In this document: piece after piece, positions 6,317 through 40,440 of the stretch | How the letters are laid out: every line of letters begins with the position of its first letter | Position numbering within the stretch: position 1 is the stretch's first letter | Origin: Aquificota bacterium | GTDB taxonomy: Bacteria; Thermosulfidibacterota; Thermosulfidibacteria; Thermosulfidibacterales; B14-G1 | DNA length: 48,154 nt | Assembly (NCBI GenBank): GCA_015486105.1 | Contig: WFSI01000093.1 | Coordinates: 1-48,154 of the forward strand | Direction: 5' to 3' | Notes under the pieces: model-generated | What the model saw: the letters and a program-made list of their open reading frames with translations, nothing else | What the model was told of the DNA's origin: nothing | Database searches by the model: none | Made by a program: the position numbers and the translations under genes

Positions 6317-6469
6317 CAGGAAAATTCATGAAAATAGACTCTTTATAAACATAGCAAAGCTAACCAGCTTAAAAATAAAGATAAAGCCTGTAAAAATTTT
6401 TATCCCCTGGACCCCAAGAAGCCTTATTTCTGTGGCTTCCTTCCCAAAGGAGTGCTATAAAGACACCCC

Positions 6470-20925: not shown

Positions 20926-21094
20926 CTTGTATCTCCCTTTACTAAGGATAATGCAAAAGTGAGGTATTATCAAAGCTTACAGATTGGAGAATCCGCCTTT
21001 TTCCTAAGGTTGAAACCTTAGAAAGGTAAAAACCCCATTTAGGATATTCCCCAAAAAGCCAAGACTGCAAACACCAAAAGCGTAAAATACATCC

Positions 21095-22543
21095 CTAAAA
21101 GGCAAGCCAAGCAAAAGAGCTATAGGAAGCAGAAAGGGCACTCCCTGGAAAGATACCCAATTGAAATATGCCTACTACAACGATAAGCAAGGCAATAACG
21201 GCGGCAGGATGAATGGAAAAGGCATACTCCTCCTTCGGTTCTACCATATACATCACATAAACCACCTTTAGGTAATAGTAGGCAGCCACGGCGCTGTTAA
21301 AAACAGCTATAATGACCAAGGGTATAAGCCCCGATCTTATTCCAGAGGCAAATACATAGAACTTACCCATAAAACCTGCCGTCCCCGGGATACCTGCCAG
21401 AGAGAAAAAGCATATGGCCATAGCCGCTGCCAACACAGGTCTTTTAGCTGCCAAGCCAGCATAATCCGAGATGTCCACGAATCTCTCTCCCTGACGACCT
21501 ACCAATGACACGACACCAAAGGCCCCCAGATTCATAAGGGAATAGGCCAACATATAAAATATCACCGCCGCTCCTCCTTGCCTGGAGGCAGCAGCCACAC
21601 CCACCAAAGCATATCCGGCATGGGCTATGCTGGAGTAAGCCAGAAGACGCTTAATGTTTTCCTGGCGAAGGGCTGCAAAGTTTCCAATAACCATGGAAGC
21701 CACCGATACCACGGTAACTATGACTACCCAATGGGCCTTCAAGGGATACAGCGCCATTCCCAAAAAGCGAAGCATCACCGCAAAAACAGCTACCTTGGCT
21801 GCTGTAGCCATGAAACCAGCTACAGGAGCAGGGGCACCGCCATAGACGTCAGGGGCCCACCCATGAAAAGGCGCTGCCGAGACCTTGAAGAAAAAGCCCA
21901 CTAACACCAATACAACCCCCACAAGCAGCGTAGCGGAAGGAGAAGCAGTGGAGACAAACCGAGCTACATCCTGAAAATAAAGGCTCCCCACAACACTATA
22001 TATGAAAGCCAACCCCATAAGGAAAATGGCTGATGCAAACCCGCCCAAGAATAGGTACTTCAAAGCCGCCTCATTGCACAGGTCCCTTTGACGCACAAAA
22101 CCTGCCAAGGCATAGAGGGCAATGGAAAGAACCTCCAATCCCACGAAAAAGAGGATAAGGTGCTGGGCCGAAGTCATAAAGAAAAGCCCTATAACTGAAA
22201 AAAGAATAAGGGCGTAATACTCTCCCAGGTTCCGACCTTCTTGGCGAAGGTACCCAGGGGAAAAAAGGAAGGTGAGACCAGCAATAAGGATGTATATAAG
22301 AAAAGTAATGATAGATAGTTTATCAGTTATTAGGGTATGAGCAAAGGTAAGACTATGCACATTCCAAAGGCCCAAGGAAAACCAGGCGGCCAGGGCTAGC
22401 CCCACCAATCCCAGATAGCCATAGTGACTCTCCCTTCCCTTGGCACCAAAGACATCTACAAACAGCACCACCACCCCCGTAACTAAAAGCACAATAACGG
22501 GCAACAAAGGGCGAATATTGACAGACAACGCTTGAGTAGTCAT
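21095..22543 (-). CDS. nuoN: NADH-quinone oxidoreductase subunit N
   Basis: Multi-[40 protein letters not shown]. Confidence 0.95.
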
Positions 22544-24123
22544 GGCCTCACCTCAACCTTGCGTTCTTCCACTACGGACGCCGCCAGGGAAATCTTCCCC
22601 TTTATTTCAGGATTATGCTCCATGGCCACAGCTGTATCCCCCTTAATCTGGGCAATGAAATGGGCAACGGAAGGCTCCATCCTCTGTAAAACTGGCTTTG
22701 GATAGATGCCTATCCAAAACATGGGAATGCTGAACATGAGGCAGATCACAACCTCCCTAAGCCCAAGGTCCTTCAAAGAAAGATTTTCCTTAACGGTGAT
22801 TTCATGGAAAAAGACCCTCTTAACCAGCCAAAGCATGTAACAAGCAGAAAGCACCGAAGTTGTAGCCCCCAATGCCCCATAAATAGGATACGCCTTAAAG
22901 GTTCCCACCAAGGCCAAAAACTCCCCAACAAAACCGTTTAACCCAGGGAGACCTATGGAAGAGAAGGTAGCAATCAGGAAAAAGGCAGAATATATGGGCA
23001 TAACCTTGGCAATGCCTCCATAATCCTTTATAAGTCGAGTGTGTCTTCTATCGTAGGCCATACCCACCAGCAAAAAGAGGGCACCCGTAGAAATACCGTG
23101 GTTTACCATCTGGAGGAGCCCCCCAGAAACTCCTTGCAAGGTAAGGGCAAACATACCCAGCATAACCAAACCCAAGTGGGAAACAGAGGTATAAGCCACC
23201 AGTTTCTTCATATCATCTTGGACCAAAGCCACCAAGGCCCCATAGATAATGCTGATAATAGCCAGTATCAAAAAAAGATTACTGAACCGAAGGGCCGCAT
23301 GGGGAAAGAAGGGCATACAAAACCGCATGAAACCGTAAGTACCCATCTTTAGGAGCACACCAGCAAGAATCACCGATCCGGCAGTAGGGGCTTCCACGTG
23401 GGCATCGGGCAACCACGTATGAAAAGGGAACATGGGCACCTTAATAGCAAAGGCCAAGGCAAAGGCCAAAAAGAGCCATGGGGCAAGAGACGGGGAAACA
23501 GGCGTTGATAGAAGCTTGGCTAAACTGAAGGTGAGCTCCCCCGCCACCCGATAGTGATGATAATAAAGGAAAATGATAGAAACCAGCATAAGCACAGAAC
23601 CCGCCATAGTATAAAGGAAGAACTTGATGGCGGCATATACCCTCCTGGGCCCTCCCCAGACGCCAATAAGGAGATACATGGGCACCAGCATGGCCTCCCA
23701 AAAGAGATAGAAAAGCAGCATGTCCAAAGCACAAAAGACACCAATCATGGTGGTCTCTAAAAGAAGAAAGGATATCATGTACTCCTTGATATGCTTCTGG
23801 ATAGACCAGGAGGCCAATATAGAGAGCATAGTTAGAAAGGTAGTGAGAAGCACTAAAAAGAGGGTTATACCGTCTATCCCCAGGTGATAGTTGGCCCCCA
23901 GGATCTTGATCCACGGAATCTTCTCAACAAACTGAAAGTGATAAGTTCCCAAGTGAAATTTAAAATAGAGCGGGATGGAAAGAATAAACTCCGCCACAGT
24001 GGTTACAAAAGCCACCCAGCGAAGAAGGTCTTTGCTCTCCTTATCAACGAAGAGCAAAACAAGCACACCCACCAATGGGAAGAAGGTAATAATAGTCAAA
24101 ACAGGATACGTAAAACCGCCCAT
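22540..24123 (-). CDS. nuoM: NADH-quinone oxidoreductase subunit M
   Basis: [65 protein letters not shown]. Confidence 0.96.
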
Positions 24124-24138
24124 CTCTCCTCTCCTCGC

Positions 24139-26019
24139 CTAAAATAGTCTGCCAATCCAGTAGATGACCACTGCTCCCATCAGGATCATCCAGGCATAGT
24201 CGGGGATATACCCCGTCTGAAACTGCCGGATGCCGCTCCCAGCCAGACGACAGAGCCTCCCCACCCCATTTACTGTGCCATCTATAATGACCACATCCAC
24301 AAACTTCCACAGAAGGTAACGAGACCCATCCACCAAGGGATTGATAATAAAAGCGAAGTAAATCTCGTCCACATAGTACTTGTTATAGAGCAAGGTATAG
24401 ACAGGCCTAAAGGTCCTGGCCATCCCCACAGGGTCAGGCATTTTCCTCATGTACATGAAATAGGCCAATATGATACCAGCTACCCCCATGATGACCGAAA
24501 TAACCAAAAGCACATGCTCCACCCCTGCCCCAGCTTCCTCCCCATGGGCTGCTACTTCACCCAAAACCTTATTAAGGAACCCACCGATACCCCCATGGGG
24601 ACCCAAAGCCAAAAGACCTACCACTGCTGAACCAACAGCCAGTACTATCAGAGGCACCGTCATCACTGGAGGCGATTCTTGAGCTATTTCATAGAGATGA
24701 CTATCCCTAGGCTTACCAAAGAAGGTGAGAAAGATAAGCCTAAACATATAAAAAGCCGTGAGGAAAGCTGTAAAGGTTCCCACAAACCAAATCACCTTGT
24801 GTCCATGCATGAAGGCCCCCGCCAAGATCTCGTCCTTAGACCAGAAGCCTGATAAAGGAGGTATACCTGAAATGGCCAATGCCCCAACTATAAAGGTCCA
24901 TCCTGTGATGGGCATCTTCTTGATAAGCCCTCCCATCTTCTGCATGTTCAGCTCACCGTGAAGCATATGCATCACCGAGCCAGCGCAGAGAAACATAAGG
25001 CCTTTGAAGAAGGCATGGGTAAAGAGATGGAAGATACCAGCAGCGTAAACCCCCACTCCAACACCAATAAACATGTAACCCAGCTGACTTATGGTAGAAT
25101 AAGCCAAGACACGCTTGAGGTCATTGTTCACCAAGGCAATAGTGGCAGCCAATAAGGCGGTAAAAGCACCGATGGAAGCCACTATCTCAGCAGAGAAGGG
25201 GGCCAAATTGTAAAGGACATGGACCCTGGCCACCATGTACACACCCGCAGTGACCATGGTGGCAGCATGGATAAGGGCACTGACCGGGGTAGGGCCTTCC
25301 ATGGCATCAGGGAGCCACACATAGAGAGGGAACTGGGCAGATTTACCAACGGCGCCAACAAAGAGAAAGAGGGTTATGAGGGTAATGATAAGGGGAGAAG
25401 CAAGAGAAGCCCTGGAAAAAACATCAGCAAACATCAAAGAACCATAGAACTTGTATATGGCAAAGAGACCGATCATGAACCCGAGATCTCCAAGTCTGGT
25501 AGTGACAAAGGCCTTCATACCTGCATTGGCCGCGCTGGTCTTCTCATACCAGTACCCGATAAGCAAGTAGGAGCAAAGGCCTACTCCCTCCCAGCCAACA
25601 AACATGAGTAAAAAGTTGTTAGCAGAAACCAGCAGGAGCATAAAAAATGTGAACAGGTTTAACCAAGAAAAGTATTTAGCGTAACCCCTGGGGGTCTCGT
25701 GCTCCATGTACCCAATTGAATAGAGATGAATCCAGGCAGCCACAAAGGAAACCGTGGCCAACATAACCGCCGATAGCTCATCAACAAGGAATCCAACGGG
25801 TATCCTGAAACTCCCCACCGGAATCCACGTATAAAGGTTCATATCACCATGAGCACCGCCTATCACCTTAGAAAGCACCACTAAGGAACATATGCATGAG
25901 GCAAAAAGGGCTGGCACCGCAATGAGATGGGCTTTCTTCTTGGTCACCCACAGAAAGATGCCGTTTATGGCTGCACCCAAAAGAGGAATAAAAACGGCCC
26001 CCACCACCCAAATCATCAT
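24139..26019 (-). CDS. nuoL: NADH-quinone oxidoreductase subunit L
   Basis: FAWLNLFTFF-like SWLNLFTFFMLLLVSANNFLLMFVGWEGVGLCSYLLIGYWY; AQFPLYVWLPDAMEGPTPVSALIHAATMVTAGVYMVAR. Confidence 0.96.
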   Translation of the reverse strand: MMIWVVGAVFIPLLGAAINGIFLWVTKKKAHLIAVPALFASCICSLVVLSKVIGGAHGDMNLYTWIPVGSFRIPVGFLVDELSAVMLATVSFVAAWIHLYSIGYMEHETPRGYAKYFSWLNLFTFFMLLLVSANNFLLMFVGWEGVGLCSYLLIGYWYEKTSAANAGMKAFVTTRLGDLGFMIGLFAIYKFYGSLMFADVFSRASLASPLIITLITLFLFVGAVGKSAQFPLYVWLPDAMEGPTPVSALIHAATMVTAGVYMVARVHVLYNLAPFSAEIVASIGAFTALLAATIALVNNDLKRVLAYSTISQLGYMFIGVGVGVYAAGIFHLFTHAFFKGLMFLCAGSVMHMLHGELNMQKMGGLIKKMPITGWTFIVGALAISGIPPLSGFWSKDEILAGAFMHGHKVIWFVGTFTAFLTAFYMFRLIFLTFFGKPRDSHLYEIAQESPPVMTVPLIVLAVGSAVVGLLALGPHGGIGGFLNKVLGEVAAHGEEAGAGVEHVLLVISVIMGVAGIILAYFMYMRKMPDPVGMARTFRPVYTLLYNKYYVDEIYFAFIINPLVDGSRYLLWKFVDVVIIDGTVNGVGRLCRLAGSGIRQFQTGYIPDYAWMILMGAVVIYWIGRLF

Positions 26020-26032
26020 ATCTCCTCTCCTC

Positions 26033-26338
26033 TCACCACTTCATCAAGTGTGCCCGATCTACATCAACACCACCCCTGTTCCTGTAAAAGGTGGTGATGA
26101 CCGCCATCCCAATGGCCGCCTCAGCAGCGGCCACAGCCATGACAAACAAGACAATGACCTGACCCTCTGCACTCCCCATGTGCCTGGACAACGCCATAAA
26201 CAAAATATTCACCCCGTTGAGCATAAGCTCTAAACAGAGAAACATGACGATGGTGTTTCTCCTAACCATCAATCCCAACGCTCCCAAGAGAAAAACCAAC
26301 ACACTCAACACCGTATACTGAAAAAGCCCTACTCCCAC
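26033..26338 (-). CDS. nuoK: NADH-quinone oxidoreductase subunit K
   Basis: LGLMVRRNTIVMFLCLELMLNGVNILF; GTG start at VGVGLFQYTVLS. Confidence 0.93.
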   Translation of the reverse strand: MGVGLFQYTVLSVLVFLLGALGLMVRRNTIVMFLCLELMLNGVNILFMALSRHMGSAEGQVIVLFVMAVAAAEAAIGMAVITTFYRNRGGVDVDRAHLMKW

Positions 26339-26348
26339 CTTATACCCC

Positions 26349-26852
26349 CTACAGCTTCTTCTTAGCCAATGCCACAGCTCCCAAAGCAGCAACAAAAATG
26401 AGAACGGAAACCAGCTCAAAGGCCAGCATGTAACGGGTGAAAATGAGATGGGAAATCTCACCTATGGACACACCGTGGGATCCCCCTTTCACCCATCCCT
26501 TCCACTCCACACCAAGGACAACCACTTGAATAACAAAGAGGACAACAGCGCCTAAGCCGAACAAGAACCTCCAAGGCGCTATCCTATCCTCATACTCCCC
26601 TTTGTGCAGGTTCATGAGCATGAGAACAAAAAGGAAAAAAACCATGATGGCTCCAGCGTAGACGATGACCTGGAGCATAGCAATGAAGGGAGCCCCCATA
26701 AGAGCCAAGTACATAACAGCAGTAATACACAAATTAGCCAACAGAGAAAGGGCCGAATAGACGGGATTTTTGAGAAAAACTACCCCCAAAGCCGAGAGGA
26801 GAATCAACACAGCCAAAAAGAAAAAAAGCACATCCCAAAGATTAATAATCAT
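26349..26852 (-). CDS. nuoJ: NADH-quinone oxidoreductase subunit J
   Basis: FLKNPVYSALSLLANLCITAVMYLALMGAPFIAMLQVIVYAGAIMVFFLFVLML. Confidence 0.94.
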   Translation of the reverse strand: MIINLWDVLFFFLAVLILLSALGVVFLKNPVYSALSLLANLCITAVMYLALMGAPFIAMLQVIVYAGAIMVFFLFVLMLMNLHKGEYEDRIAPWRFLFGLGAVVLFVIQVVVLGVEWKGWVKGGSHGVSIGEISHLIFTRYMLAFELVSVLIFVAALGAVALAKKKL

Positions 26853-26854
26853 AG

Positions 26855-27286
26855 CTACTCCCCACCCGTTTTCTCTAAGAGCCAATTCTTTTCCTTTAAC
26901 AGATGCACTCTACCAGGACCCGGTACCGTTAACTCATAATCCTGGGTCATCTCTATTGCCCCTCGGGGACAAGCATCCACACACAAGCCGCAAAATATAC
27001 ATCTACCATAATCAATGGCGTAATACTCAGCATACTTACCCACATCAGAGCGCTTAAACTCGGGATCCTCCTTCCCATAGAGCTTTATTGCATACGCAGG
27101 ACAAATCTCCTCACAGAGACCACAGGCACAGCATCTCTCTCTTCCATCCTCATCTACCTTGAGAATGTGCCTCCCCCTGTATCTATCCGAGACCTGCCTT
27201 TTCTCGTATGGATATTTTATAGTGATATGAGGCTTAAAGAGATGGCCAAAAGTGACGCTCAATCCCTTAATCAACGGCCCAATCAT
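26855..27286 (-). CDS. nuoI: NADH-quinone oxidoreductase subunit I (2x[4Fe-4S])
   Basis: CCACGLCEEICPAYAI and CIFCGLCVDACPRGAI motifs. Confidence 0.95.
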   Translation of the reverse strand: MIGPLIKGLSVTFGHLFKPHITIKYPYEKRQVSDRYRGRHILKVDEDGRERCCACGLCEEICPAYAIKLYGKEDPEFKRSDVGKYAEYYAIDYGRCIFCGLCVDACPRGAIEMTQDYELTVPGPGRVHLLKEKNWLLEKTGGE

Positions 27287-27289
27287 GAC

Positions 27290-28297
27290 TTAAATTCCCC
27301 CTTGGAGAAATAGCATCACACCACCTGTTGCCACTATGTTCAACAGAGTTAAAGGCAAAAGATACTTCCAGGAAAATCCCATGAGTTGATCGTATCTGAA
27401 CCGAGGATAGGTCCACCTAACCCATAGTAAGAAAAAGAATACGGCCACTATCTTAATCAGGAACCATATGGGTCCAGGAACCCAGGCCAAAAAGGAAACG
27501 GGGCTGTACCACCCGCCCAAAAAGAGACACACAGCCACAGCAGAGGTAACTGCCATATTGGCATATTCCCCTAAGAAGAACATGGCAAACTTCATAGAGC
27601 TATACTCAGTATGATACCCACCTACCAATTCCGATTCGGCCTCCGGTAAATCAAAGGGCAAACGGTTAAGTTCGGCAGTGGCAGCCACCATATATAAAAT
27701 AAATGCCAAGGGCTGATACGCCACCAGCCACATGTTTTTCTGATAATGGACGATATCCACTAAACTAAAAGAACCCACAATCATGAGCACGCCCATGATA
27801 GAAAGCCCCAGTATAAGCTCATAGCTGATGAACTGAGCAGCAGATCTCAAACCACCAAGCAAAGGGTACTTGGAATTGGCAGACCACCCACCAAACACGA
27901 TGGCATAGACAGAAAAAGAAGACACGGCCAACAGGTAAAGAACGGCCACATTTATATCAGTAATCACCAGATTGATCTTATGCCCAAAGAGGGTAATGCT
28001 CTCCCCAAAAGGAATAACCCCTATGGCCAAAATGGCAGGAATAATAGCTATTGTAGGGGCCAAAAAGTAGAGGAACTTATCGGATTTGCTCGCTACAATA
28101 TCCTCTTTAAAAAAGAGCTTAAGGCCGTCGGCAAAGGGCTGCAAAAGCGCATGGGGACCGCAGTACATAGGCCCCAGCCTATCTTGAATATGGCCGGAAA
28201 CCTTCCTCTCAGCTAATGTCCCATACGCAACTATCAACATGAGCACCGCAAACAGCACTAACAGCTTAACCAATGCCACTATGATAGCCAGTAACAT
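27290..28297 (-). CDS. nuoH: NADH-quinone oxidoreductase subunit H
   Basis: ERKVSGHIQDRLGPMYCGPHALLQPFADGLKLFFKED; ELNRLPFDLPEAESELVGGYHTEYS. Confidence 0.96.
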   Translation of the reverse strand: MLLAIIVALVKLLVLFAVLMLIVAYGTLAERKVSGHIQDRLGPMYCGPHALLQPFADGLKLFFKEDIVASKSDKFLYFLAPTIAIIPAILAIGVIPFGESITLFGHKINLVITDINVAVLYLLAVSSFSVYAIVFGGWSANSKYPLLGGLRSAAQFISYELILGLSIMGVLMIVGSFSLVDIVHYQKNMWLVAYQPLAFILYMVAATAELNRLPFDLPEAESELVGGYHTEYSSMKFAMFFLGEYANMAVTSAVAVCLFLGGWYSPVSFLAWVPGPIWFLIKIVAVFFFLLWVRWTYPRFRYDQLMGFSWKYLLPLTLLNIVATGGVMLFLQGGI

Positions 28298-28300
28298 AGC

Positions 28301-30595
28301 TCACTCCTTAATGTTACTTAACCTGATTCCCTGGTACCAAGAACCCTTCAAGGTACTTGTCAAGGGAAAATCCGAGAATCCCAAAGAGACCAATGCCCCA
28401 CCCTTAGGCACCTCGTCTTTGACCAAAAGCTTCATATGGAATTGAAGATCATCCGACTCCATTATCACCCTATCGCCCTCCTTAAACCCTAACTCCCCAG
28501 CATGCTCCGGATTCAAAGCAACCCAGGGCTCAGGTTCCAGATGTACAAAGGCATTGCAAAAATCCATCTTCACTCCCATCTTGTAAAAGGGATAATCAAA
28601 CAGAGCAGGAATATCCCCTCTCAATAAATCTTCCTTAGCACTCGACACCTGGGGAGCCTTCAAAACCTCCTTGGAGAGCTCTTGAAAAACCAAAGAAGAT
28701 ACATCCTCTATCTGTTGAAAATCTCCCAAGGGCTTACCCCATTCCCGTGATAATTCCATAGCCACTTGCCAGAGAGACAAAGAATCTCCCTTGGGCTTAA
28801 TAGCCCTCTTACGCTTTTGAGGTTCCCAAAACATGTTCAGCACGGTGCCTCCATCCTCTGCAAAACTGGTAGCGGGTATAAAACAATCCGCATAGGCAAC
28901 GGTCTCCGTAAAGAACATGTCATGCACAACCAACAGGTCCAAATTAGAAAAGGCTTCCTTTATCAAAGATCCATAAGGATAGTCTCTAAAAAGATCCGTG
29001 GAGGAAACAAAAAGGGCCTTTACCTCTCCAGATACACACTTGTTCAATATATCTTCCACGGTTTCTCCATTGGGTGACCAGAATCCCATTTGAAAAGCCC
29101 CTTTAGGATTACCGCCCCAATCCAAAAAGAGGGGAACCACATTCAACCTCCCACCCAACCTCTTTAAGAGATCCCTACCAGCGGGGCTGAGTCTATTTCC
29201 CCCCAAAAGAAGAGGCTTCTTGCCCTCCAATCCCTGGGCAATCTCTTTAACCGTCTCTTCAGAAATCCCGCTTCCCTTTACTAAGGGGCTATACTCTTTC
29301 CCCTCCAAAGCCAGCAGAAGGGCTTCCAGCAATTTCTCTTCCCATCCCGGTAAGGGATTAGCATGCACAGTGGCAAACTTGTAGAGAAAAGAATCAGCAG
29401 TTACCAATAGATAAAGGGGAGATCCCCCTTCCTTACACCCTTTACCGATACTGAGGGCTAAAACTGGATGATGAAGACTCACATCCTCTCCCACCACAAA
29501 GTAGGCCTCTGCTTTCTCCACATCCTCCAAGGAGTTTACAGAAGGCTTCTCAGGGTAACCCTTTTCACCATAAAGCCTGTAATCCACATACTCGCTACCC
29601 AACACCTCCCTCATAAACCTTCCCATAAGAAGGTAGTCCTCACACGTGAGATGGGGAGATGCTAATGTTGCCACTTGGCCACCATTACCAACAATCTCTC
29701 TTAGTCTCTCAGTCACGAAAGTGAAAGATTCTTCCTTCGCAATACCCCTCAGCTTATTCCCTTCCCTCTTTAGAGGAACAGCGATCCTTTCCCCATGATT
29801 TGCAAACTCAAAACCATAACCCCCCCTGTCACAAATCCAAGGGGAAGGATAAGCTGTTTGATGCCGAATCTTCAAAAGCTGATCATCCCTCTGGCCCAAA
29901 TCCAACCAACAACCTATTTCGCAATGGGGACACACACTAGCAGTAAAATCCAGCTTCCATATACGGGTTTTATACCGATAAATATTAGACGTTATAGCTC
30001 CCACAGGACACAAAGCCTCCATATTAAAGGTGTAACGATCAGCAAAGGTCTCGCTCTCATAGGGACCTACTATCGTCCTATGTCCCCTCTCATAGGCACC
30101 CCAGTTGGTACCCCCCATCACCTCGGAACCAAACCTGACACACCTTCTGCAAAGAACGCAGCGGCTCATCTGATGAACAATTAGGGGCCCTAAATACCGG
30201 GTAGGGTACTTATGGGGCTCATCATGAAGGCGCTTTACCGGCTCTCCATACTTAAAAACAAAGTCCTGCAACTCACATTCACCCGCTTGATCGCACACGG
30301 GACAATCAAGAGGATGGTTCACCAAGAGAAACTCCAACAGCCATTTTCTGGCTTCTTGAACCTTTTCGCTATTGGTATAGATCTCCCAACCATCCTGGAC
30401 TTCTGTTATGCAAGCAGGCATAAGTTTAGGAGCACCTTTGACTTCCACCAAGCACATCCTACAGATGCCCGCCGGCTTCAAATATGGATGATAACAAAAG
30501 GCCGGGATATCAACACCAATGCGGTTGGCAGCATTTAGTACAGTCGTCCCTGCGGGAACTTCAATTTCTATTCCATCAATAACTACCTTGGGCAT
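28301..30595 (-). CDS. nuoG: NADH-quinone oxidoreductase subunit G
   Basis: [2Fe-2S] CYHPYLKPAGICRMC, HPLDCPVCDQAGEC, CVLCRRCVR...CPVGAI, CPHCEIGC; molybdopterin-type C-terminus. No H-cluster motifs. Confidence 0.94.
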   Translation of the reverse strand: MPKVVIDGIEIEVPAGTTVLNAANRIGVDIPAFCYHPYLKPAGICRMCLVEVKGAPKLMPACITEVQDGWEIYTNSEKVQEARKWLLEFLLVNHPLDCPVCDQAGECELQDFVFKYGEPVKRLHDEPHKYPTRYLGPLIVHQMSRCVLCRRCVRFGSEVMGGTNWGAYERGHRTIVGPYESETFADRYTFNMEALCPVGAITSNIYRYKTRIWKLDFTASVCPHCEIGCWLDLGQRDDQLLKIRHQTAYPSPWICDRGGYGFEFANHGERIAVPLKREGNKLRGIAKEESFTFVTERLREIVGNGGQVATLASPHLTCEDYLLMGRFMREVLGSEYVDYRLYGEKGYPEKPSVNSLEDVEKAEAYFVVGEDVSLHHPVLALSIGKGCKEGGSPLYLLVTADSFLYKFATVHANPLPGWEEKLLEALLLALEGKEYSPLVKGSGISEETVKEIAQGLEGKKPLLLGGNRLSPAGRDLLKRLGGRLNVVPLFLDWGGNPKGAFQMGFWSPNGETVEDILNKCVSGEVKALFVSSTDLFRDYPYGSLIKEAFSNLDLLVVHDMFFTETVAYADCFIPATSFAEDGGTVLNMFWEPQKRKRAIKPKGDSLSLWQVAMELSREWGKPLGDFQQIEDVSSLVFQELSKEVLKAPQVSSAKEDLLRGDIPALFDYPFYKMGVKMDFCNAFVHLEPEPWVALNPEHAGELGFKEGDRVIMESDDLQFHMKLLVKDEVPKGGALVSLGFSDFPLTSTLKGSWYQGIRLSNIKE

Positions 30596-30612
30596 CTCAG
30601 GGACCTCCTAAG

Positions 30613-31815
30613 TTACTTGTCTACATCTCCGAGCACAATATCTAAGGTACCTATTATAGCAGCCATATCGGCCACCTTATGGCCCTTAGAGAGGAGGGGA
30701 AGAGTTTGAAGGTTCATGAGAGATGGCAGCCTAATCCTCAGCCTAAAAGGCTTAGGACCCCCGTCACCTACTACATAAAACCCCAACTCCCCTTTAGGAG
30801 CCTCTATGGACTGATAAACCTCACCTACAGGAGCATGGAAGCCCTCACACACAAGCTTGAATTGATGGATAAGGGCCGCCATATCCCTATGTTCTCCCCT
30901 AACCAAATCCGGATCAGGAAAGAAAAGCTTACCCTCGAGAGCATGTATAGGACCCTCCGGTAAACCCTCCAAGGCCTGAAGAATAATCCTCCTACTCTGC
31001 CTCATCTCCTCCATTCTCACTAAGTACCTGTCATATGTATCACCGTGCTCACCCGTAGGGATCTCAAAATCAAACTGCTCGTATCCCGAGTAAGGATATA
31101 CCTCCCGTATATCCCATCTGAGCCCGGAACCTCTAAGCATGGGACCCGTAGCCCCGTAAGCTATCGCATCCTCCTTACTCAAAACCCCCACATTCACCGT
31201 TCTCAACTTCCATATCTTGTTTTTGGTAAGAAGATTTTCGTACTCCTCAATCTTGCCAGGAAGGATATCCAAAAACGCCTTCAGCTTGGGAATAAAAGCC
31301 TCAGGCAAATCCCATCTCACCCCCCCCACCACAAAGTAGCTTTGATGCATCCTCACACCAGCAACCATCTCCAAAAGCTCATAAGTGATCTCTCTCTCAC
31401 GGAAGGTGTAAAGGAAAACTGTTACAGCACCAATATCCATGGCGTGGCTACCCAGCCATATCAGGTGACTGGCAATCCGAGCCAGCTCAGCCATGATCAC
31501 CCTGATATACTGAGCACGAGGTGGCACCTTAATGCCAAGCAACTTTTCTACCGCCAAGCAATAGGCAAAATTATAAGCAGGACAGGCCAGATAATCTAAC
31601 CTATCTATCAGAGGAATCACCTGCTGATACGTTTTAGACTCTGCCAGCTTCTCCGTACCCCTGTGAAGATACCCTATGACAGGTTGGGCATCTACAACCG
31701 TTTCTCCCTCCAGATCCAAGATGACCCTCAACACACCATGGGTACTGGGATGCTGAGGCCCCATATTGAGGGTAACTGTCCTTCTCTCAGCCCGCTCTGT
31801 GGTCACACTCATCAT
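30613..31815 (-). CDS. nuoD: NADH-quinone oxidoreductase subunit D
   Basis: LNMGPQHPSTHGVLRVILDLEGE; ERITYELLE-like; DIVLGDVDK C-terminus. Confidence 0.96.
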   Translation of the reverse strand: MMSVTTERAERRTVTLNMGPQHPSTHGVLRVILDLEGETVVDAQPVIGYLHRGTEKLAESKTYQQVIPLIDRLDYLACPAYNFAYCLAVEKLLGIKVPPRAQYIRVIMAELARIASHLIWLGSHAMDIGAVTVFLYTFREREITYELLEMVAGVRMHQSYFVVGGVRWDLPEAFIPKLKAFLDILPGKIEEYENLLTKNKIWKLRTVNVGVLSKEDAIAYGATGPMLRGSGLRWDIREVYPYSGYEQFDFEIPTGEHGDTYDRYLVRMEEMRQSRRIILQALEGLPEGPIHALEGKLFFPDPDLVRGEHRDMAALIHQFKLVCEGFHAPVGEVYQSIEAPKGELGFYVVGDGGPKPFRLRIRLPSLMNLQTLPLLSKGHKVADMAAIIGTLDIVLGDVDK

Positions 31816-32280
31816 CTACTCCTCAAAATCATAACCTTCAGTAGGATAGTCTTTCCTCAAGGGATGACCAGGGAAATCCTCTGACAAATAAAGCCTGGTA
31901 AGATTCGGGTGACCTTCAAATTCTATACCAAACATGTCGTAGACCTCCCGTTCCATCCAATCTGCTCCAGCCCAAAGCCCACAGGAGGAAGAAACAGTCT
32001 CACCTTCCTCCAAACCTACCTTCACCCGGAGCTGGACTTTAGAATCCATGTTTCTCAAGTGATAGACCACATAAAAACGAGGGCTCTCGCCCTCACCCAT
32101 ATCCAAACCACAGAGATCCACCAAACAATTGAAACCGAAGTCCCTTCTCAGAAGTTCCAGGGCCTCAAAAAGGGAAGATTTATCCACCACCCAGGTATGC
32201 TCTCCTCTAAATTCCGCCTCGTTTATCACCGCCCCTTGCAAACACTCCTTTGCCTCATCCAGCCAATCCATAGCAATCAC
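31816..32280 (-). CDS. nuoC: NADH-quinone oxidoreductase subunit C
   Basis: WMEREVYDMFGIEFEGHPNLTRLYLSEDFPGHPLRKDYP. Confidence 0.95.
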   Translation of the reverse strand: MIAMDWLDEAKECLQGAVINEAEFRGEHTWVVDKSSLFEALELLRRDFGFNCLVDLCGLDMGEGESPRFYVVYHLRNMDSKVQLRVKVGLEEGETVSSSCGLWAGADWMEREVYDMFGIEFEGHPNLTRLYLSEDFPGHPLRKDYPTEGYDFEE

Positions 32281-32286
32281 CTGTAA

Positions 32287-32853
32287 CTATATCTTATTTT
32301 GAAAAGATTCTTTCTCTATCTTCTTCTGAAGCATCAGAATAGCCTGAAGCAAAGCTTCAGGCCTAGGGGGACAGCCAGGAACATAGAAATCCACTGGCAC
32401 TACCTTGTCCACACCTTGCACCACAGCGTAACTCTTATATATACCACCGCCAACAGCACAGGCCCCCATAGCTATAACCCACTTGGGATCGGGCATCTGA
32501 TCATAAACCCTCTTAAGGACAGGAGCCATCTTCTTAGTAAGGGTGCCAGCGACTATCATGAGATCAGCCTGCCTAGGAGATGGTCTAAACACCTCCGCTC
32601 CAAAACGGGCCATATCATAGTGAGAAGCAGCCGTAGCCATCATCTCAATAGCACAACAGGCTAAACCAAAGGTCACCGGCCAGATAGACCATTTTCTGGC
32701 CCAGTTCACTGCCTTATTTAGGGAAGTAATGAGCACTCCCCCCTTTTCCAACATTTCAAGCTCGGCCTCTGTTACGCTCTCCTCTACCAACCTCTCCTCA
32801 GGCTTCACCAACCTGGGGATCTCTACCTTTTCAACAGGAGTTCTCTTCACTCC
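32287..32853 (-). CDS. nuoB: NADH-quinone oxidoreductase subunit B
   Basis: [60 protein letters not shown]. Start at MGVKRTP. Confidence 0.96.
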
Positions 32854-33203
32854 CATTCCAAAGCCCCCCTCCCCCACACATAGACAAAGATAGCCAAGAA
32901 TATAGCGATAAAAACCACCATCTCCAAAAAACCAAAGAGCCCCAGTCTTTTGAAACTCACAGCCCAGGGATAGGTAAAAACAACCTCTATATCAAAAACA
33001 AGAAAGAGAAGAGCAACGATGTAGTAATGAATGAAAAAGGGAGCCCGGGCATCTCCGATGGGATCCAAACCACACTCATAAGGAGAAAGTTTGATAGAAT
33101 CGGGTCGCTTTGGTCCCAGTAAAGCAGAGGCCAAAACAGCAAATACCCCAAAACCAACTCCCAACAAGAGCACAAGGATCAATGGCCAATACGCTTCTCT
33201 CAT
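32847..33203 (-). CDS. nuoA: NADH-quinone oxidoreductase subunit A
   Basis: [41 protein letters not shown]. Confidence 0.95.
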
Positions 33204-33228: not shown

Positions 33229-33282
33229 TACATATCACCCAGTCCCCAGCCATGTCAATAGAGAAAATTGTTTTTTTCACAA
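33229..33282 (-). promoter_or_regulatory. Predicted nuoA promoter with 30-bp element shared with the GAF-operon promoter
   Basis: Minus strand TTGTGAAAAAAACAATTTTCTCTATTGACA (33282-33253), TTGACA as -35, 18-bp spacer, TATGTA (33234-33229). 26/30 identical to 40411-40440. Confidence 0.65.
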
Positions 33283-33335: not shown

Positions 33336-36300
33336 TTAATTAACAGCCTCTACCTTTTCCAGTTCCTCTTCCTCTTCTATCTCCTCTGGAGGTCTATCAC
33401 AGTGGAGGCACCTCTTAGCCTCTTCAACGGCCTGATCCAACGAAAGGCCCTCATTCACCTCCACGAAACTTTTTCTATCCTCCAAAGGCAACATGCAAGG
33501 CTTCGCCCGGGGGAGAGTCACCAGATAAGCCTCCTCATCATAGGTGGTTCCAACCACTTCCCTTTCGGGGAAGGGAATTTTACCTTCATAACCAAAGTAT
33601 TTGTCGATCTCCATAGCAGCTAACCTTCCATGGGCCACGGCTTCCACCACCGTGGCAGGGTTAACTGCGTCTCCCCCTGAAAACACGCCAGGGATGCTGG
33701 TCTTCATAGTCCTATCATCCACTTGCACAAATCCCCATTTATTGAAAAGCTCTTCTTGGGCATCCAGTCCTTTAGTTAAACCCTGACCTATACAAGGAAT
33801 CAAGGTATCGGCCTCTATAGCAAAATTGGAGCCTTCCACAGCAACAGGTCGCCTCCTGCCACCCCTATCGAAACCCCTGGTCTCCATGCGAACGCACTCT
33901 ACCCCCGTCACCTCGCTCTCACCTAGCACTTTAACAGGCGTAATGAGGAAATTGATCTTGACACCCTCTTCCAAAGCCTCTTCAATTTCCTCAGGAAAGG
34001 CAGGCATATCGTTCTTAGTGCGACGATAAATAATGCTCACCTCCTCAGCCCCCAACCTAAGGGCGGTCCTGGCAGCGTCAATGGCAGTATTACCACCTCC
34101 CACTACCACGACTTTATTCCCAATCTCCACCTCCTTACCTAGATTCACATCCCTCAAGAAGTCTATGCCGTGGTACACGCCAGGCAGATCCTCGCCTGGC
34201 ACATTCAGTTTATAGGAGGTATGAGCACCAACCCCCACGAACACAGCCTTATAACCCTCGTCAAAGAGGTTCTGAAGGCTATCCACCTTGTGGTTCAGCT
34301 TAAGATCAACCCCCGCCTCCACAATTCTTTCTATCTCCCTATCCAGCACCTGGGGGGGCAACCGGTAATCAGGGATACCCACCCTCATCATACCTCCCGC
34401 CACTGGCAAGGCTTCAAAAACAGTAGGCAAGTAGCCTAAACGGGTAAGATAAAAGGCGCAGGCCAAACCTGCCGGTCCAGCCCCTATTATAGCCACTTTC
34501 TCCTTTTTGGGATCCTCAGGAGGCCCCCAGGGACCCGCATCTTTCAATGCCCAGTCAGCAAAGATCCTCTTGATCTCCCTTATGGCCACCGCCTCATCAA
34601 ACTTCTCCCTGTTACACTTCTTCTCGCAAAAGGCAGGACACACCCGGGAGCAGGCCGCAGGAAAGGGATTGTTCTCCATGTGAACGTAGTAAGCCTCGGG
34701 TATCTTATTTTCCGCTACCAAGGCTACATACCGGGCAGGATCCACACCAGCAGGACAGGCATTCTGACAGGGGGCATAAAAGAGGGCAGCGCATACACCA
34801 GCAGGACATTTTTTGTCCACGATATGAGCAATATACTCATCTCTGAAATACCTCATAGTGGAAAGGACAGGATTGGGAGCAGTTCCCCCCAAGGCGCAAA
34901 GGGATGTGTTAATTATGAGGTGCCCCAAGGTATCCAGGGTGTCTAAGTCCTCTATCTTGCCTTCACCGTTGGTAATCCTCTCCAAGATATTCAGCATCTG
35001 CTTTAGACCCACACGACAAGGTACACACTGACCGCAGGACTCCTCCACACAAAATTCCAGGAAAAACTTGGCTATATTAACCATGCAGGTATCTTCATCA
35101 AGAACAATCATACCACCAGAGCCCATAATTGCGCCCAGTTCCTTCAAAGATTCATAATCTATGGGAGTATCCAAGTAAGGAGCAGGGATGCAACCACCCG
35201 AAGGACCTCCCGACTGTATAGCCTTAAACTTCTTGCCTTTGGGAATACCCCCACCAATATCGAACACCATCTCCCCCACGGTGGTGCCCATGGGGACCTC
35301 CACCAATCCGATATTGTTCACCTTACCCGTAAGGGAAAAGACCTTGGTGCCCTTACTCTTTTCCGTACCCATGCTGGCATACCAGTCACCGCCGTTCCGG
35401 ATAATAGGGGGAATATTGGCATAAGTCTCCACATTATTGATATTGGTGGGCTTGCCCCAAACGCCCTTATTGGCAGGAAATGGAGGCTTGGGTCTGGGCT
35501 CTCCCCTGCCTCCCTCCACAGACTTGAGCAAGGCCGTCTCTTCTCCACATACAAAGGCACCTGCCCCAATCCTTATCTCCACATCGAAGTCGAACCCCGT
35601 ATCCAGAATGTTTTCACCCAAGAGTCCATACTCCCGGGCCTGGCTCATGGCTATTTCCAGCCTCTCAATGGCTATGGGATACTCTGCCCTTATGTAAATG
35701 TAGCCCTTCTTCACGTTTCCAATAGCGTAAGCAGCTATGGCCATGCCTTCCAATACCCTATGGGGGTCGCCCTCCATGACGCTCCTGTCCATGAAGGCCC
35801 CGGGGTCGCCCTCATCGGCGTTGCAAATTATATACTTCTCATTACCAGGGGCCTTCCTGGTAAACCCCCACTTGAGTCCTGTGGGAAAGCCGGCGCCACC
35901 TCTGCCCCTCAGGCCGCTCTTTGTCACCTCCTCAATCACCTGCTCAGGGGTCATCTCCATTAAAACCTTAGCCAAAGCCTCGTACCCGTTCTCGGCAATG
36001 TACTCATCTATGGACTCAGGATCTATCTTACCCGCATTTTCAAGAACTATCTTGTGCTGCTTGGCGAAGAAGCTGTACTCCATCATGCTCCTGACCACCT
36101 GCCCAGTGACCTCGTGGAGGAGCATCCTCTCCACAGGCCTTCCTTTGAGCAAATGCTCCTCCACAAGAAACGGCACATCCTCAGGCTGAACCCTGGCATA
36201 GAGAAGCATATCAGGATAGATCACCACCACGGGGCCCAAATCACAGGTCCCTCCACATCCCCTTTTTACTACCTTCACCTCAGCCTCTAAGCCCCTCCTC

Positions 36301-36395
36301 TTTATCTCTTCTTCAAAGGCTGCCCTGACCTTAGGAGACCCACTGGCCACGCAAGCCGTACCCTCACAAATTAAGACATGGGTTCTATAAATCAT
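33336..36395 (-). CDS. nuoF: NuoF/HydB-like diaphorase subunit fused to NfnB/GltD-like FAD oxidoreductase (1019 aa)
   Basis: N-term Trx-like [2Fe-2S] (CEGTAC...CGGTC), FMN/NADH site GLRGRGGAGFPTGLKWGF, SLBB, [4Fe-4S] ESCGQCVPCR. Then CQNACPAGVDPARYVALV...CSRVCPAFCEKKCNR and KVAIIGAGPAGLACAFYLTRLGY, VVVVGGGNTAIDAARTALRLGA. Confidence 0.92.
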   Translation of the reverse strand: MIYRTHVLICEGTACVASGSPKVRAAFEEEIKRRGLEAEVKVVKRGCGGTCDLGPVVVIYPDMLLYARVQPEDVPFLVEEHLLKGRPVERMLLHEVTGQVVRSMMEYSFFAKQHKIVLENAGKIDPESIDEYIAENGYEALAKVLMEMTPEQVIEEVTKSGLRGRGGAGFPTGLKWGFTRKAPGNEKYIICNADEGDPGAFMDRSVMEGDPHRVLEGMAIAAYAIGNVKKGYIYIRAEYPIAIERLEIAMSQAREYGLLGENILDTGFDFDVEIRIGAGAFVCGEETALLKSVEGGRGEPRPKPPFPANKGVWGKPTNINNVETYANIPPIIRNGGDWYASMGTEKSKGTKVFSLTGKVNNIGLVEVPMGTTVGEMVFDIGGGIPKGKKFKAIQSGGPSGGCIPAPYLDTPIDYESLKELGAIMGSGGMIVLDEDTCMVNIAKFFLEFCVEESCGQCVPCRVGLKQMLNILERITNGEGKIEDLDTLDTLGHLIINTSLCALGGTAPNPVLSTMRYFRDEYIAHIVDKKCPAGVCAALFYAPCQNACPAGVDPARYVALVAENKIPEAYYVHMENNPFPAACSRVCPAFCEKKCNREKFDEAVAIREIKRIFADWALKDAGPWGPPEDPKKEKVAIIGAGPAGLACAFYLTRLGYLPTVFEALPVAGGMMRVGIPDYRLPPQVLDREIERIVEAGVDLKLNHKVDSLQNLFDEGYKAVFVGVGAHTSYKLNVPGEDLPGVYHGIDFLRDVNLGKEVEIGNKVVVVGGGNTAIDAARTALRLGAEEVSIIYRRTKNDMPAFPEEIEEALEEGVKINFLITPVKVLGESEVTGVECVRMETRGFDRGGRRRPVAVEGSNFAIEADTLIPCIGQGLTKGLDAQEELFNKWGFVQVDDRTMKTSIPGVFSGGDAVNPATVVEAVAHGRLAAMEIDKYFGYEGKIPFPEREVVGTTYDEEAYLVTLPRAKPCMLPLEDRKSFVEVNEGLSLDQAVEEAKRCLHCDRPPEEIEEEEELEKVEAVN

Positions 36396-36421
36396 TGCAT
36401 CCTCCCTTAGTGATCATGGCT

Positions 36422-36802
36422 CTATTCTAAAGGCGTAGAGACCACATATTCCTTCACGGTTTCACCCCTTATTATGTGGCTTTCTATGATCTCTTTGGCC
36501 TTTTCAGCAGTGAGATTGCAGTACATCACCTTTCTCCCTTCTCTATCCTCCACCAAAGCCACGGGCTGAATAGGATCGCTTCCCATGAACCCCGTCTGGG
36601 TCACCACTACATTGTGGAGATCATGCTCTTCTATTGCATCCAAAAAGGCCTTTAACACCTCTCTGGCGCCAGCGGCTATCCCTGAGGTTCCCATAGGAAC
36701 GACTATTCTATAGTCATACTCCCCCTCCCTTATGTCCATCTTCTTCTTAGCCTGCTCCCTTATTTTCCTCAATTGATCCAAGGTTCTCACCTTCTCTGCC
36801 AT
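36422..36802 (-). CDS. Thioredoxin-like [2Fe-2S] ferredoxin-family protein lacking the cluster cysteines
   Basis: IVVPMGTSGIAAGAREVLKAFLDAIEEHDLHNVVVTQTGFMGSDPIQPVALV. Family fold is recognisable; the only Cys in the protein is in VMYCNL. Confidence 0.8.
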   Translation of the reverse strand: MAEKVRTLDQLRKIREQAKKKMDIREGEYDYRIVVPMGTSGIAAGAREVLKAFLDAIEEHDLHNVVVTQTGFMGSDPIQPVALVEDREGRKVMYCNLTAEKAKEIIESHIIRGETVKEYVVSTPLE

Positions 36803-36812
36803 AACTCACCTC

Positions 36813-37361
36813 CTACTCTGCTTTCATTACATCTCTAAGATTTTCGTTTATATAACCCCTTAAAAACCCGAGCACATTAGCATCAGACATGGGTACATCA
36901 CCCAGCAAATCCTTCACCTTTTTGCTATCAAAAAGAAACTCACCTTTCCCCTCATACTTCACTACAAATCTGACCTCAGGGTTAGAAACAATAAGGGCAA
37001 AGAGGGTACCGGCTAAATCCCCCATAGGGGGACGATCTATGTGACTTAATCCAAACGCCGCTTCCAGGACAGTTCCTTTACCAGGGCTACTATCCAAACT
37101 GAAATAACCATCACAATGCTCGGCCACCCACTTAAACATCGGTATCCCCAAGCCCACCTTTCCACCTTGCTTAGTTGTATAAAATGGATCCTGAACCCAT
37201 TTTAACTCTTTGGCAGTCATACCTCTGCCATCGTCCTTAACCCGCACCTTAAGGAGATCCCTGTCCATATCTTCATTTATGACGAGCTCTATCTTCCTCG
37301 CACCAGCGGCTAAAGAGTTTTGAAGTATGTCCATTATATGCAAGGCAAGTTCCTCCATCAT
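36813..37361 (-). CDS. Stand-alone HATPase_c domain protein
   Basis: LALHIMDILQNSLAAGARKIELVI (N-box), VKDDGRGM, DPFYTTKQGGKVGLGIPMFKWVAEHCDG, SSPGKGTVLEAAF; no DHp domain. Confidence 0.85.
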   Translation of the reverse strand: MMEELALHIMDILQNSLAAGARKIELVINEDMDRDLLKVRVKDDGRGMTAKELKWVQDPFYTTKQGGKVGLGIPMFKWVAEHCDGYFSLDSSPGKGTVLEAAFGLSHIDRPPMGDLAGTLFALIVSNPEVRFVVKYEGKGEFLFDSKKVKDLLGDVPMSDANVLGFLRGYINENLRDVMKAE

Positions 37362-38137
37362 GATTCATCTTGCCCCAATTCGAGAGAATTTGAAGAGCGA
37401 TGAAGCACCTGAACCGCCTCCTTGCCCCTCTTCAAGGCCTGCATAAAACCCCACCACGAAGGCTCCTCCATGAAAAAGAGGGTAACAACAGCCCCTATAT
37501 CTTCAGGGTAATGGGCATCTGAAGCGCTCACGATAGTATACTTCCGCAACTCAGGCCACTTAGCTACAGCTTGCTCCGGTGTTAGCGCCCGGGAAACCTC
37601 TACCGCCTCAAGATCCAAATAATCGGGAATAAACCCCAACTGGTTGATTACACCGTAGGAAGCCCTGTCCACATGGGCAGGAATGGGGAAACCCTGATAG
37701 TCCTTCACCATTCTGACGCATGCGTCAAAAGAGAGGGACAAGGAGTTAAGAAGGAGTTTCTCCTCAAATCCCACCACATTTTCATCCTCATCCACTATCA
37801 CCTGATCCCCGAAATAGTCGGGGTTGTTCTTCACATCTGGAAGATACCCATAGATTACATCTCTAAAAGAGAAGACCGCATCAAGAGTTCCGAAATAAGC
37901 CAAAAGATGAACCTCCTCTTCCGTCTGGAGCTCCATTCCTGGAATGACCTGCACTCCTATCTTATCCCCTATCCTCTTGGCATACAACACGTTGTCACAA
38001 GTATTATGATCAGTAACAGCAATCATATGAATACCCTTCTCCTTGGCTTCTCTCACGATACGCCCTGGAGACATCTCCAGGCTCCCACAAGGAGATAAAG
38101 TAGAGTGTATGTGAAGGTCCGCCATATACCACTTCAA
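37358..38137 (-). CDS. PHP-domain phosphoesterase
   Basis: ADLHIHSTLSPCGS, AVTDHNT, PGMELQTEEEVHLLAYF, SASDAHYPEDIG. Confidence 0.92.
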   Translation of the reverse strand: MKWYMADLHIHSTLSPCGSLEMSPGRIVREAKEKGIHMIAVTDHNTCDNVLYAKRIGDKIGVQVIPGMELQTEEEVHLLAYFGTLDAVFSFRDVIYGYLPDVKNNPDYFGDQVIVDEDENVVGFEEKLLLNSLSLSFDACVRMVKDYQGFPIPAHVDRASYGVINQLGFIPDYLDLEAVEVSRALTPEQAVAKWPELRKYTIVSASDAHYPEDIGAVVTLFFMEEPSWWGFMQALKRGKEAVQVLHRSSNSLELGQDES

Positions 38138-38484
38138 GAATCATCCTCCCCCCTCAAAAGCTCATACAACACCCCGGACAATTCAAATAAAGGTAATTTG
38201 GAAACAAGAATAGGAATCCCCTCTTTCTCCGCTTTATCCAATACTTCAGGTGAAGGAACTATACCTTTAGCAAGCACGATTCCCCCCAGATCACTTACTT
38301 TAGCTACAGCCACTATATTTAAATGCCTCTGAATAGTAAGCCACAAATCCCCTGCATTAGCACCAGCCATTACATCGGAAAGAAGGTCCGATGCATAGGC
38401 CCACCTCACCTCCCTGTCTTGGACATCCACACCCCTCGTCACTAATTCTAAATCCAATTTGTCTATAATATTTTTAAGCAGCAT
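38134..38484 (-). CDS. DRTGG-domain protein (copy 1)
   Basis: YASDLLSDVMAGANAGDLWLTIQRHLNIVAVAKVSDLGGIVLAKGIVPSPEVLDKAEKEGIPILVS. Confidence 0.82.
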   Translation of the reverse strand: MLLKNIIDKLDLELVTRGVDVQDREVRWAYASDLLSDVMAGANAGDLWLTIQRHLNIVAVAKVSDLGGIVLAKGIVPSPEVLDKAEKEGIPILVSKLPLFELSGVLYELLRGEDDS

Positions 38485-38944
38485 CTTTCCTCCTAAAAAC
38501 CACAGAATATATCTTGGTTCCTTTGCCCATCTCCGACTCTATATGAAAAACATCAGACTTTTCCTTAATATTAGGCAAGCCCAAACCTGCACCGAAACCC
38601 AATTCTCTTATCCAGAGAGGAGCCGTAGAGTAACCAGGAGTCATGGCCTTTTCTACATCCTCAATACCCGGGCCATCATCTTCCACAACCACCTCCACTC
38701 TGTTAGGCTTAACCTCAACCTTCAAGTGACCACCCCTATCCGCGTAAGATGCCAGATTCATCTCAGCCTCAAAACAGATTATAGATACCTTTTTGATCAC
38801 ATCATCCTCGACCCCTATTTCTTGCAAGCGCCTCTTTATCTCTGTAGAAACTACGCCCACATTGTCCAAATCCCCACCTTTCAAAATCGCATAGTGAAGA
38901 ACAACCTCCCAGCCTTCACTCAAAGATACTTCCCCTCTGAACAC
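38474..38944 (-). CDS. RsbW-like anti-sigma/Ser-Thr kinase ATPase
   Basis: SIICFEAEMNLASYADRGG, VEDDGPGI, GFGAGLGLPNIKEKSDVFHIESEMGKGTKI. Confidence 0.85.
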   Translation of the reverse strand: MFRGEVSLSEGWEVVLHYAILKGGDLDNVGVVSTEIKRRLQEIGVEDDVIKKVSIICFEAEMNLASYADRGGHLKVEVKPNRVEVVVEDDGPGIEDVEKAMTPGYSTAPLWIRELGFGAGLGLPNIKEKSDVFHIESEMGKGTKIYSVVFRRKDAA

Positions 38945-39279
38945 CGAATCCCTTTTAAGTACAACCTGCCGCAGGCCTCAAAGGTGGGGATAGGGGTACT
39001 TAATAACACTATACCGTTCTCCGTTGCCCAACTAATCACTTTCTCTTCAGTGGGCTTCTTACCCCTCACGTAGAGAATAGCCGGAATACCCATCACCTCC
39101 GCCACTCTCACTACCTGTGGTGCCACATTACTAGTGACAGTAAGGGCAGGTCCGCCTCTCAGAGCCAGAACATCAGACAGAAGATCCGCCGCACAAGCGG
39201 CTTCTATTTCCCTTCTTCCCTCTTCTTCCAGGTTCAAGAACTGGGCTTCCAATAGCTCAGCTACTTCCTTCAGTTTCAC
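38920..39279 (-). CDS. DRTGG-domain protein (copy 2)
   Basis: AACAADLLSDVLALRGGPALTVTSNVAPQVVRVAEVMGIPAILYVRGKKPTEEKVISWATENGIVLLST. Confidence 0.8.
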   Translation of the reverse strand: MKLKEVAELLEAQFLNLEEEGRREIEAACAADLLSDVLALRGGPALTVTSNVAPQVVRVAEVMGIPAILYVRGKKPTEEKVISWATENGIVLLSTPIPTFEACGRLYLKGIRCSEGKYL

Positions 39280-39766
39280 TCAATCCCTCCCTCTCATAGT
39301 ACCCCTTCACTATATTCCAGGCCCGCTGGGGACTGAGCCTCCCGTAAACATCTTCACCAATCATAATAACAGGGGCAAGACCACAAGCCCCAACGCATCT
39401 CACGGTATTCACAGTAAACTTCTGATCTTTAGTGGTGCCCCCCACCTTAACCCTCAGCCTGTGACAGAGGGTTTCCAGCACATCCTTCCCCCCCTTCACG
39501 TGGCAGGCAGTTCCCAAACAGACACGGATCTCATACTCCCCTATGGGCTCTGTCCTGAAAAAGTTGTAAAAGGTTACCACGCCATAAACATGGCTGGGCG
39601 GAACCCCTAGTTCCTGGGCAACATACCCAATAATCTCCGGCGGAAGATAGCCAAAGACCCCTTGAGAAAAGTGAAGCACTTTAATAAGGGACCCAGGATC
39701 CCCCCTGAAATTCGCCACGAAGTCCTTAACCTTATTATGCTCCGGCGTGTCCGGCAGTTTCACCAT
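39257..39766 (-). CDS. nuoE: NuoE/HydC-type [2Fe-2S] subunit
   Basis: IKVLHFSQGVFGYLPPEIIGYVAQELGVPPSHVYGVVTFYNFFRTEPIGEYEIRVCLGTACHVKG...CVGACGLAPV. Confidence 0.94.
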   Translation of the reverse strand: MVKLPDTPEHNKVKDFVANFRGDPGSLIKVLHFSQGVFGYLPPEIIGYVAQELGVPPSHVYGVVTFYNFFRTEPIGEYEIRVCLGTACHVKGGKDVLETLCHRLRVKVGGTTKDQKFTVNTVRCVGACGLAPVIMIGEDVYGRLSPQRAWNIVKGYYEREGLSETEGSS

Positions 39767-39778
39767 TGCCCCCCTCCT

Positions 39779-40351
39779 TTAACGAGCACCAAATTCAAAC
39801 CAGTGATAAACATCCCTCATGAGCTGTTCATAACTACCCTTCACACCCTCATAGAGTCGGGCATTCTCTATAGCAATAGTAGCCTGCTCAGCCAAAGCCT
39901 GAACAAAATCTACCTCATCCGCGCCAAAAGCCCGGGGGTTAGAAGTATAAAGTCTAAGAACACCAATCACTTTACCCCTCAACACCAAAGGAACACTAAG
40001 TATAGAAGCTACGCCTTCCTTTACAGCCGCCTCTTTATACTGGACCCTAATATCATGAGCTGCATCATAAACAGCTACAGGTTTACCCTCCATGGCATCG
40101 GCGACGCTTCTGTCAGCCTCAACGGGACCCTTCTTTAAATAATCCTCAGAGATGCCATAAGAAGCCACCAACTCCAATCGCTTAGACTCCTCATCCAAAA
40201 GCCGCAGAGTAGCACCCTTGACCCCCATCACTTCCGAAACCTTCTTCACCGCCCGGTCAAAAACTTCCTTGAGACTAAGAGTAGAGTTAATCAATCTACT
40301 CACTTCTTTGAAAGTCTCAAAATACTTCTTATACCTCCCCTCTTCTGCCAT
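39779..40351 (-). CDS. GAF-domain protein
   Basis: GAF: VKKVSEVMGVKGATLRLLDEESKRLELVASYGIS...VASILSVPLVLRGKVIGVLRLYTSNPRAFGADEVDFVQALAEQATIAIENARLYE. Start at MAEEGRYKKYF because the ORF-track start lies upstream of the predicted promoter. Confidence 0.88.
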   Translation of the reverse strand: MAEEGRYKKYFETFKEVSRLINSTLSLKEVFDRAVKKVSEVMGVKGATLRLLDEESKRLELVASYGISEDYLKKGPVEADRSVADAMEGKPVAVYDAAHDIRVQYKEAAVKEGVASILSVPLVLRGKVIGVLRLYTSNPRAFGADEVDFVQALAEQATIAIENARLYEGVKGSYEQLMRDVYHWFEFGAR

Positions 40352-40386
40352 AAAAGCACCCCCCCCCCAAGGTACTATTCTGGGAG

Positions 40387-40440
40387 AGATTACTACCCCG
40401 GTGAAATCATTGTCAATAGAGAAAATGATTTCCTTCACAA
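40387..40440 (-). promoter_or_regulatory. Predicted promoter/operator of the GAF-NuoE-signalling-NuoF unit, sharing the 30-bp element with nuoA
   Basis: Minus strand TTGTGAAGGAAATCATTTTCTCTATTGACA (40440-40411), TTGACA -35, 18-bp spacer, TAATCT -10 (40392-40387). Confidence 0.65.

Follow-up and report, generated by a model that had tools for sequence, protein, structure and literature searches.

A conserved 30-bp promoter element, a putative operator, at the two transcription units of one complex I in the Thermosulfidibacterales

The complex I locus and its two promoters

The window, the whole stretch of 48,154 nucleotides that was analysed, carries a complex I encoded on the minus strand in two transcription units. 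The nuoA-B-C-D-G-H-I-J-K-L-M-N operon (21095..33203) is without nuoE and nuoF between nuoD and nuoG. The second unit, an NADH-input module (33336..40354), lies between the two copies of a 30-bp element and encodes a GAF protein, a NuoE-like protein, a DRTGG-like protein of 119 amino acids, a HATPase, a DRTGG protein, a PHP protein, another HATPase, a 2Fe-2S protein and a NuoF-GltD fusion. In the last of these (33336-36395, 1019 amino acids) NuoF is fused to a GltD/NfnB-like NAD(P)H domain; the HATPase, DRTGG and PHP genes are found in the same module. Directly after nuoN, and in the same direction, there is a sensor histidine kinase with GAF, HisKA and HATPase domains (18853..20973, minus strand) and its partner, a PAS protein with a degenerate histidine-kinase core (17705..18865, minus strand). 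This pair follows nuoN in 5/5 genomes whose assembly extends far enough at this end of the operon (the source genome, G001, G002, G003 and G008, from two families). No response regulator occurs near the pair.

The two copies of the element are both on the minus strand. The nuoA-type copy (33253..33282) reads TTGTGAA AAAAACA ATTTTCTCTA TTGACA, and the nuoE-type copy (40411..40440) reads TTGTGAA GGAAATC ATTTTCTCTA TTGACA, for a common pattern of TTGTGAA-N7-ATTTTCTCTATTGAC(A). The first-pass annotation had reported two such copies, each ending in TTGACA with a -10-like hexamer 18 bp further on and each lying 50-60 bp before a start codon, and this description proved accurate; the case for the element is in fact better than that annotation had claimed. 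The full 30-mers, TTGTGAAAAAAACAATTTTCTCTATTGACA at 33282-33253 and TTGTGAAGGAAATCATTTTCTCTATTGACA at 40440-40411, are 26/30 identical; the hexamers are TATGTA (33234-33229) and TAATCT (40392-40387); the distances to the start codons are 49 nt for the nuoA unit (33203) and 56 nt for the module unit (40354). A search of the window with up to 3 mismatches to the pattern returned these two places only, and 100 dinucleotide shuffles of the window gave 0 matches at the same threshold. With a simple model, about 0.008 such pairs of 30-mers would be expected in 48 kb.

The last six bases of the element are the -35 box of a sigma-70 promoter (33253..33258 in the nuoA promoter, minus strand). This box adjoins the upstream part with zero gap in every copy, and TTGAC is present in 12/12 copies known from the order, so that the 24-bp upstream part, TTGTGAA-N7-ATTTTCTCTA, is fused to the -35 without any change in spacing. 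In most copies 17-18 bp separate the -35 from a TAnnTA-like hexamer; the distal copy of G005 is uncertain in this respect. The nuoA promoter has an extended -10, TGaTATGTA (33229..33237, minus strand), 18 bp after the -35, and TGnTAnnTA recurs in the nuoA promoters of G001, G002, G003, G006 and G008. In the module promoter, TAATCT (40387..40392, minus strand) also follows the -35 by 18 bp, and relatives have TAGTTA or TAGTCT there. The -10 hexamers of both promoters are poor. Neither source promoter was reported by an automatic sigma-70 scan, both being below its threshold; the promoter calls are supported instead by the recurrence of TGnTAnnTA in the nuoA promoters of relatives. What points to sigma-70 promoters here is a TTGACA at a conserved distance from the -10. 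The -35 of the module promoter (40395-40432) is framed by a perfect 8-bp inverted repeat made up of GAAATCAT and ATGATTTC; both arms are also found in G001, not in G002 or G003.

The first-pass annotation had called the second unit a "GAF/NuoF unit". A NuoF unit led by the element is indeed present. The GAF gene (39779-40354), positioned between the promoter and nuoE, does not define it, since it occurs at this place in the source genome only; in G001, G002 and G003 the element stands directly before nuoE with no GAF gene. What the element leads is thus the NADH-input module, to which the GAF gene has been added locally. The nearest relatives found for the GAF protein are 46% and 41% identical and belong to unrelated lineages. 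G002 and G003 have a short ORF, some 30 codons long, between the element and nuoE (L095, ~6300-6400, and its orthologue L097); the stop of this ORF overlaps a Rex-like TTGTGAAATAAATCTCAA.

Conservation, specificity and history of the element

As the first-pass annotation had anticipated for a shared control site, the element is kept in relatives, being found in 7 of the 9 genomes of the order and in three families. There are 12 copies of TTGTGAA-N7-ATTTTCTCTATTGACA, of which 11 are exact and one has a single change in the last base. The source genome, G001, G002, G003 and G005 have two copies each, G006 and G008 one each. The two genomes without a match, G004 (73% complete) and G007 (71% complete), have contigs that end before the site. 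All 22 core positions are identical across the 12 copies. The flanks differ at chance level: identity to the source nuoA promoter is 15-40% over the 40 bp upstream and 27-65% over the 60 bp downstream. All copies stand in front of nuoA or of the nuoE...nuoF module. The distance to nuoA is 52-55 bp in G006 and G008, close to the spacing in the source.

The element is also not scattered, the other outcome that the first-pass annotation had considered. With up to 3 mismatches to the full pattern, no further place was found in the nine genomes of the order, and a search with only the upstream part, allowing up to 2 mismatches, gave no additional place in the genomes of family f1. When 84,980 GTDB genomes of bacteria and archaea were scanned for exact matches to the 21 fixed bases, the result was this order and two stray matches, L091 (Thermoanaerobacterales) and L094 (inside truA), both judged to be chance. 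Among 377 genomes outside the order, two had a match with 3 mismatches, versus six matches for a reversed control pattern, so the two are chance-like. At 22 nuoA promoter loci of other phyla the best matches were within the shuffle range, except for one locus that was one mismatch beyond it. The 15-mer core had no match in the literature searched. The element is likewise absent from a second, paralogous complex I operon of the same genomes. The promoter of that operon (L124, ~7780-7863; orthologues L127, L128 and L129) has its own block conserved at the family level, AAGGGTTGMAATAAMAATCACAATATGCTAACCC, in which a Rex-like right half lies between the -35 and the -10. From the genome scans and the absence at the paralogous operon, the element is specific to the order and, inside the order, to one complex I. 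It is conserved far above its flanks and confined to one functional system, as expected for the operator of a dedicated regulator.

Different arrangements of the locus within the order suggest how two copies came about. G008 (family f3) has canonical nuoABCDEFG with a single element before nuoA. G006 also has a single element before nuoA, with a canonical D-E-F-G block on another contig. In G005 (family f2) the nuo order is canonical as well (the same nuoD stretch is found on contigs C98 and C200), and two elements stand in tandem, 153 bp apart, before nuoA (L092, 4490-4672). The distal element, with the spacer TAAAATC, is of the nuoE type, and the proximal element more nearly resembles the nuoA type. 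In family f1 the NADH module sits exactly between the nuoE-type and nuoA-type elements. With both types in tandem in G005, the module containing NuoE and NuoF/GltD probably entered between two pre-existing promoters. The simplest history, going by the three arrangements, would be tandem duplication of the promoter first, followed by insertion of the f1 module between the copies and loss of the old nuoEF.

Rival readings of the element

A dedicated repressor that sits on the element, occluding the -35 at both promoters until complex I is needed, is unlikely; it has two points in its favor. The -35 itself is part of the conserved block, and its consensus sequence would fit a promoter that fires strongly once unblocked. 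However, the poor -10 means that the free promoter would not be strong. Repressor sites also often extend to the -10 or the start site, and in this clade the Rex-like site before rex does so, whereas nothing 3' of the -35 is as strongly conserved as the element.

Another reading dispenses with a regulator: RNA polymerase alone would read an UP element and a strong core promoter, selected for expression level. We consider this improbable. Like an UP element, the upstream part is AT-rich DNA (-60 to -37) directly 5' of a consensus -35, and the TTTTCT..TTGACA end occurs in other promoter-like sites of the genome. The full element, in contrast, is absent from all other promoters. Compared in register (-59 to -38) with the E. 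coli consensus NNAAAWWTWTTTTNNAAAANNN (PMC5664571), the copies match at 4-7/15 positions, which is the level of random DNA (mean 4.6). Unlike an UP element, the element has invariant G and C positions, and the invariant TTGTG and CTCTA are not something that UP elements demand.

It is still less probable that Rex, the NADH/NAD+ sensor, binds the element with TTGTGAA as a half-site. An NADH sensor acting on complex I would make sense, since the target would be NADH metabolism, and Rex is encoded in the source genome (G000:C70) and in all genomes of the order but one (71% complete). The Rex operator is TTGTGAAW4TTCACAA (PMC2883068), and its left arm is that of the element. Against the inverted repeat TTGTGAA-N4-TTCACAA, however, the element has 8-10/14 matches. 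The left half accounts for 7 of these; TTCACAA, the right half, is missing, and the element does not fit a canonical Rex operator. The rex gene in these genomes has a proper and different site of its own, TTGTGA..GT...CACA, with both halves present and 12/18 positions invariant in seven genomes. This site is a helpful gauge of the variation found in a probable operator within the order. The rex gene (L073; orthologues L069-L072, L075 and L076) follows a gene resembling atpE, and TTGTGA-N7-CACA sits between the rex promoter and its start codon, an arrangement from which autoregulation of rex is probable.

Other known architectures were also compared. The nuoA-type copies match the CRP operator (TGTGA-N6-TCACA) at 6-7/10 positions and the FNR operator (TTGAT-N4-ATCAA) at 5-7/10. 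No HTH_Crp_2 protein above the cutoff was found in G001 or G008 (drafts, 96% and 90% complete), both of which carry the element. The poor match, together with the lack of an above-cutoff family member in these two genomes, speaks against a CRP/FNR operator. There is no direct repeat in the core, and an OmpR-like architecture finds no support. Two-fold symmetry, T.G.GAA-N10-TTC.C.A, is suggestive only (shuffle fraction 0.056).

That the copies are non-regulatory direct repeats, an attachment site or duplication left by recombination, is suggested by the two same-orientation copies flanking the 7-kb module in f1 genomes and is hardly credible, because G006 and G008 have single copies before nuoA with no inserted module, G005 has both types in tandem with no module, and every copy keeps its promoter position (most also the -10 spacing).

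A dedicated regulator for one complex I

With 22 invariant bases and essentially no occurrence elsewhere, the element very probably serves as the binding site of a dedicated, putative regulator, and with Rex, CRP/FNR and the UP element failing, this is the best remaining reading. The first-pass annotation had concluded that one regulator serves both halves of the complex I locus. The shared control element stands, on its invariant bases and its restriction to these promoters; a single regulator is simply the natural way to read it. We favor, with moderate confidence, a composite promoter/operator common to both units of one complex I and recognized by a dedicated putative regulator, likely an activator. 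The invariant junction with the -35 favors an activator that touches polymerase. In such a scheme a dedicated DNA-binding protein would bind the AT-rich stretch between about -60 and -37, recruiting sigma-70 RNA polymerase by direct contact. Recruitment would compensate for the poor -10 and the 18-bp spacer, and the NADH-input module and the membrane/quinone arm would thereby be made together. Two considerations count against an activator. Promoters that depend strongly on an activator do not usually have a consensus -35, and the same footprint would be expected of a repressor whose site overlaps the -35.

The signal acting on the element could plausibly come from the kinase pair after nuoN, a hypothesis that forms the weakest step of the scheme. 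We tentatively propose a wider picture, possible but less than probable as a whole: a previously undescribed circuit specific to complex I, in which a dedicated activator uses a 24-bp site of unusual rigidity, joined directly to the -35, at only the one or two promoters of a single complex, is fed by the kinase/pseudo-kinase pair at the end of the nuo operon, and had the NADH-input module inserted between its tandem promoter copies.

Here a promoter element that is invariant across an order occurs at only one respiratory enzyme of an uncultured lineage, which makes the locus a clear example of its kind, and the paralogous complex I operon in these genomes serves as an internal control. A complex whose input module has been replaced and split off can stay co-expressed by means of two copies of one promoter. 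The element also provides a sharply defined 30-bp bait in the search for the regulator.

Activator sites that abut or overlap a sigma-70 -35 are known, for example CRP at -41.5 and Mor at -43.5 of the phage Mu Pm promoter (PMC4390567). The element resembles these in being fixed directly upstream of, or overlapping, the -35 of promoters with a poor -10. It differs in that it matches neither CRP nor FNR sites and in that its upstream part would be centred nearer -48. In model bacteria the nuo operons are regulated by ArcA and Crp, e.g., in Shewanella (PMC12210985). As in those organisms, the complex I operon would be controlled at its own promoter; in contrast to them, the sequence and the lineage are different, and two separate units carry one element.
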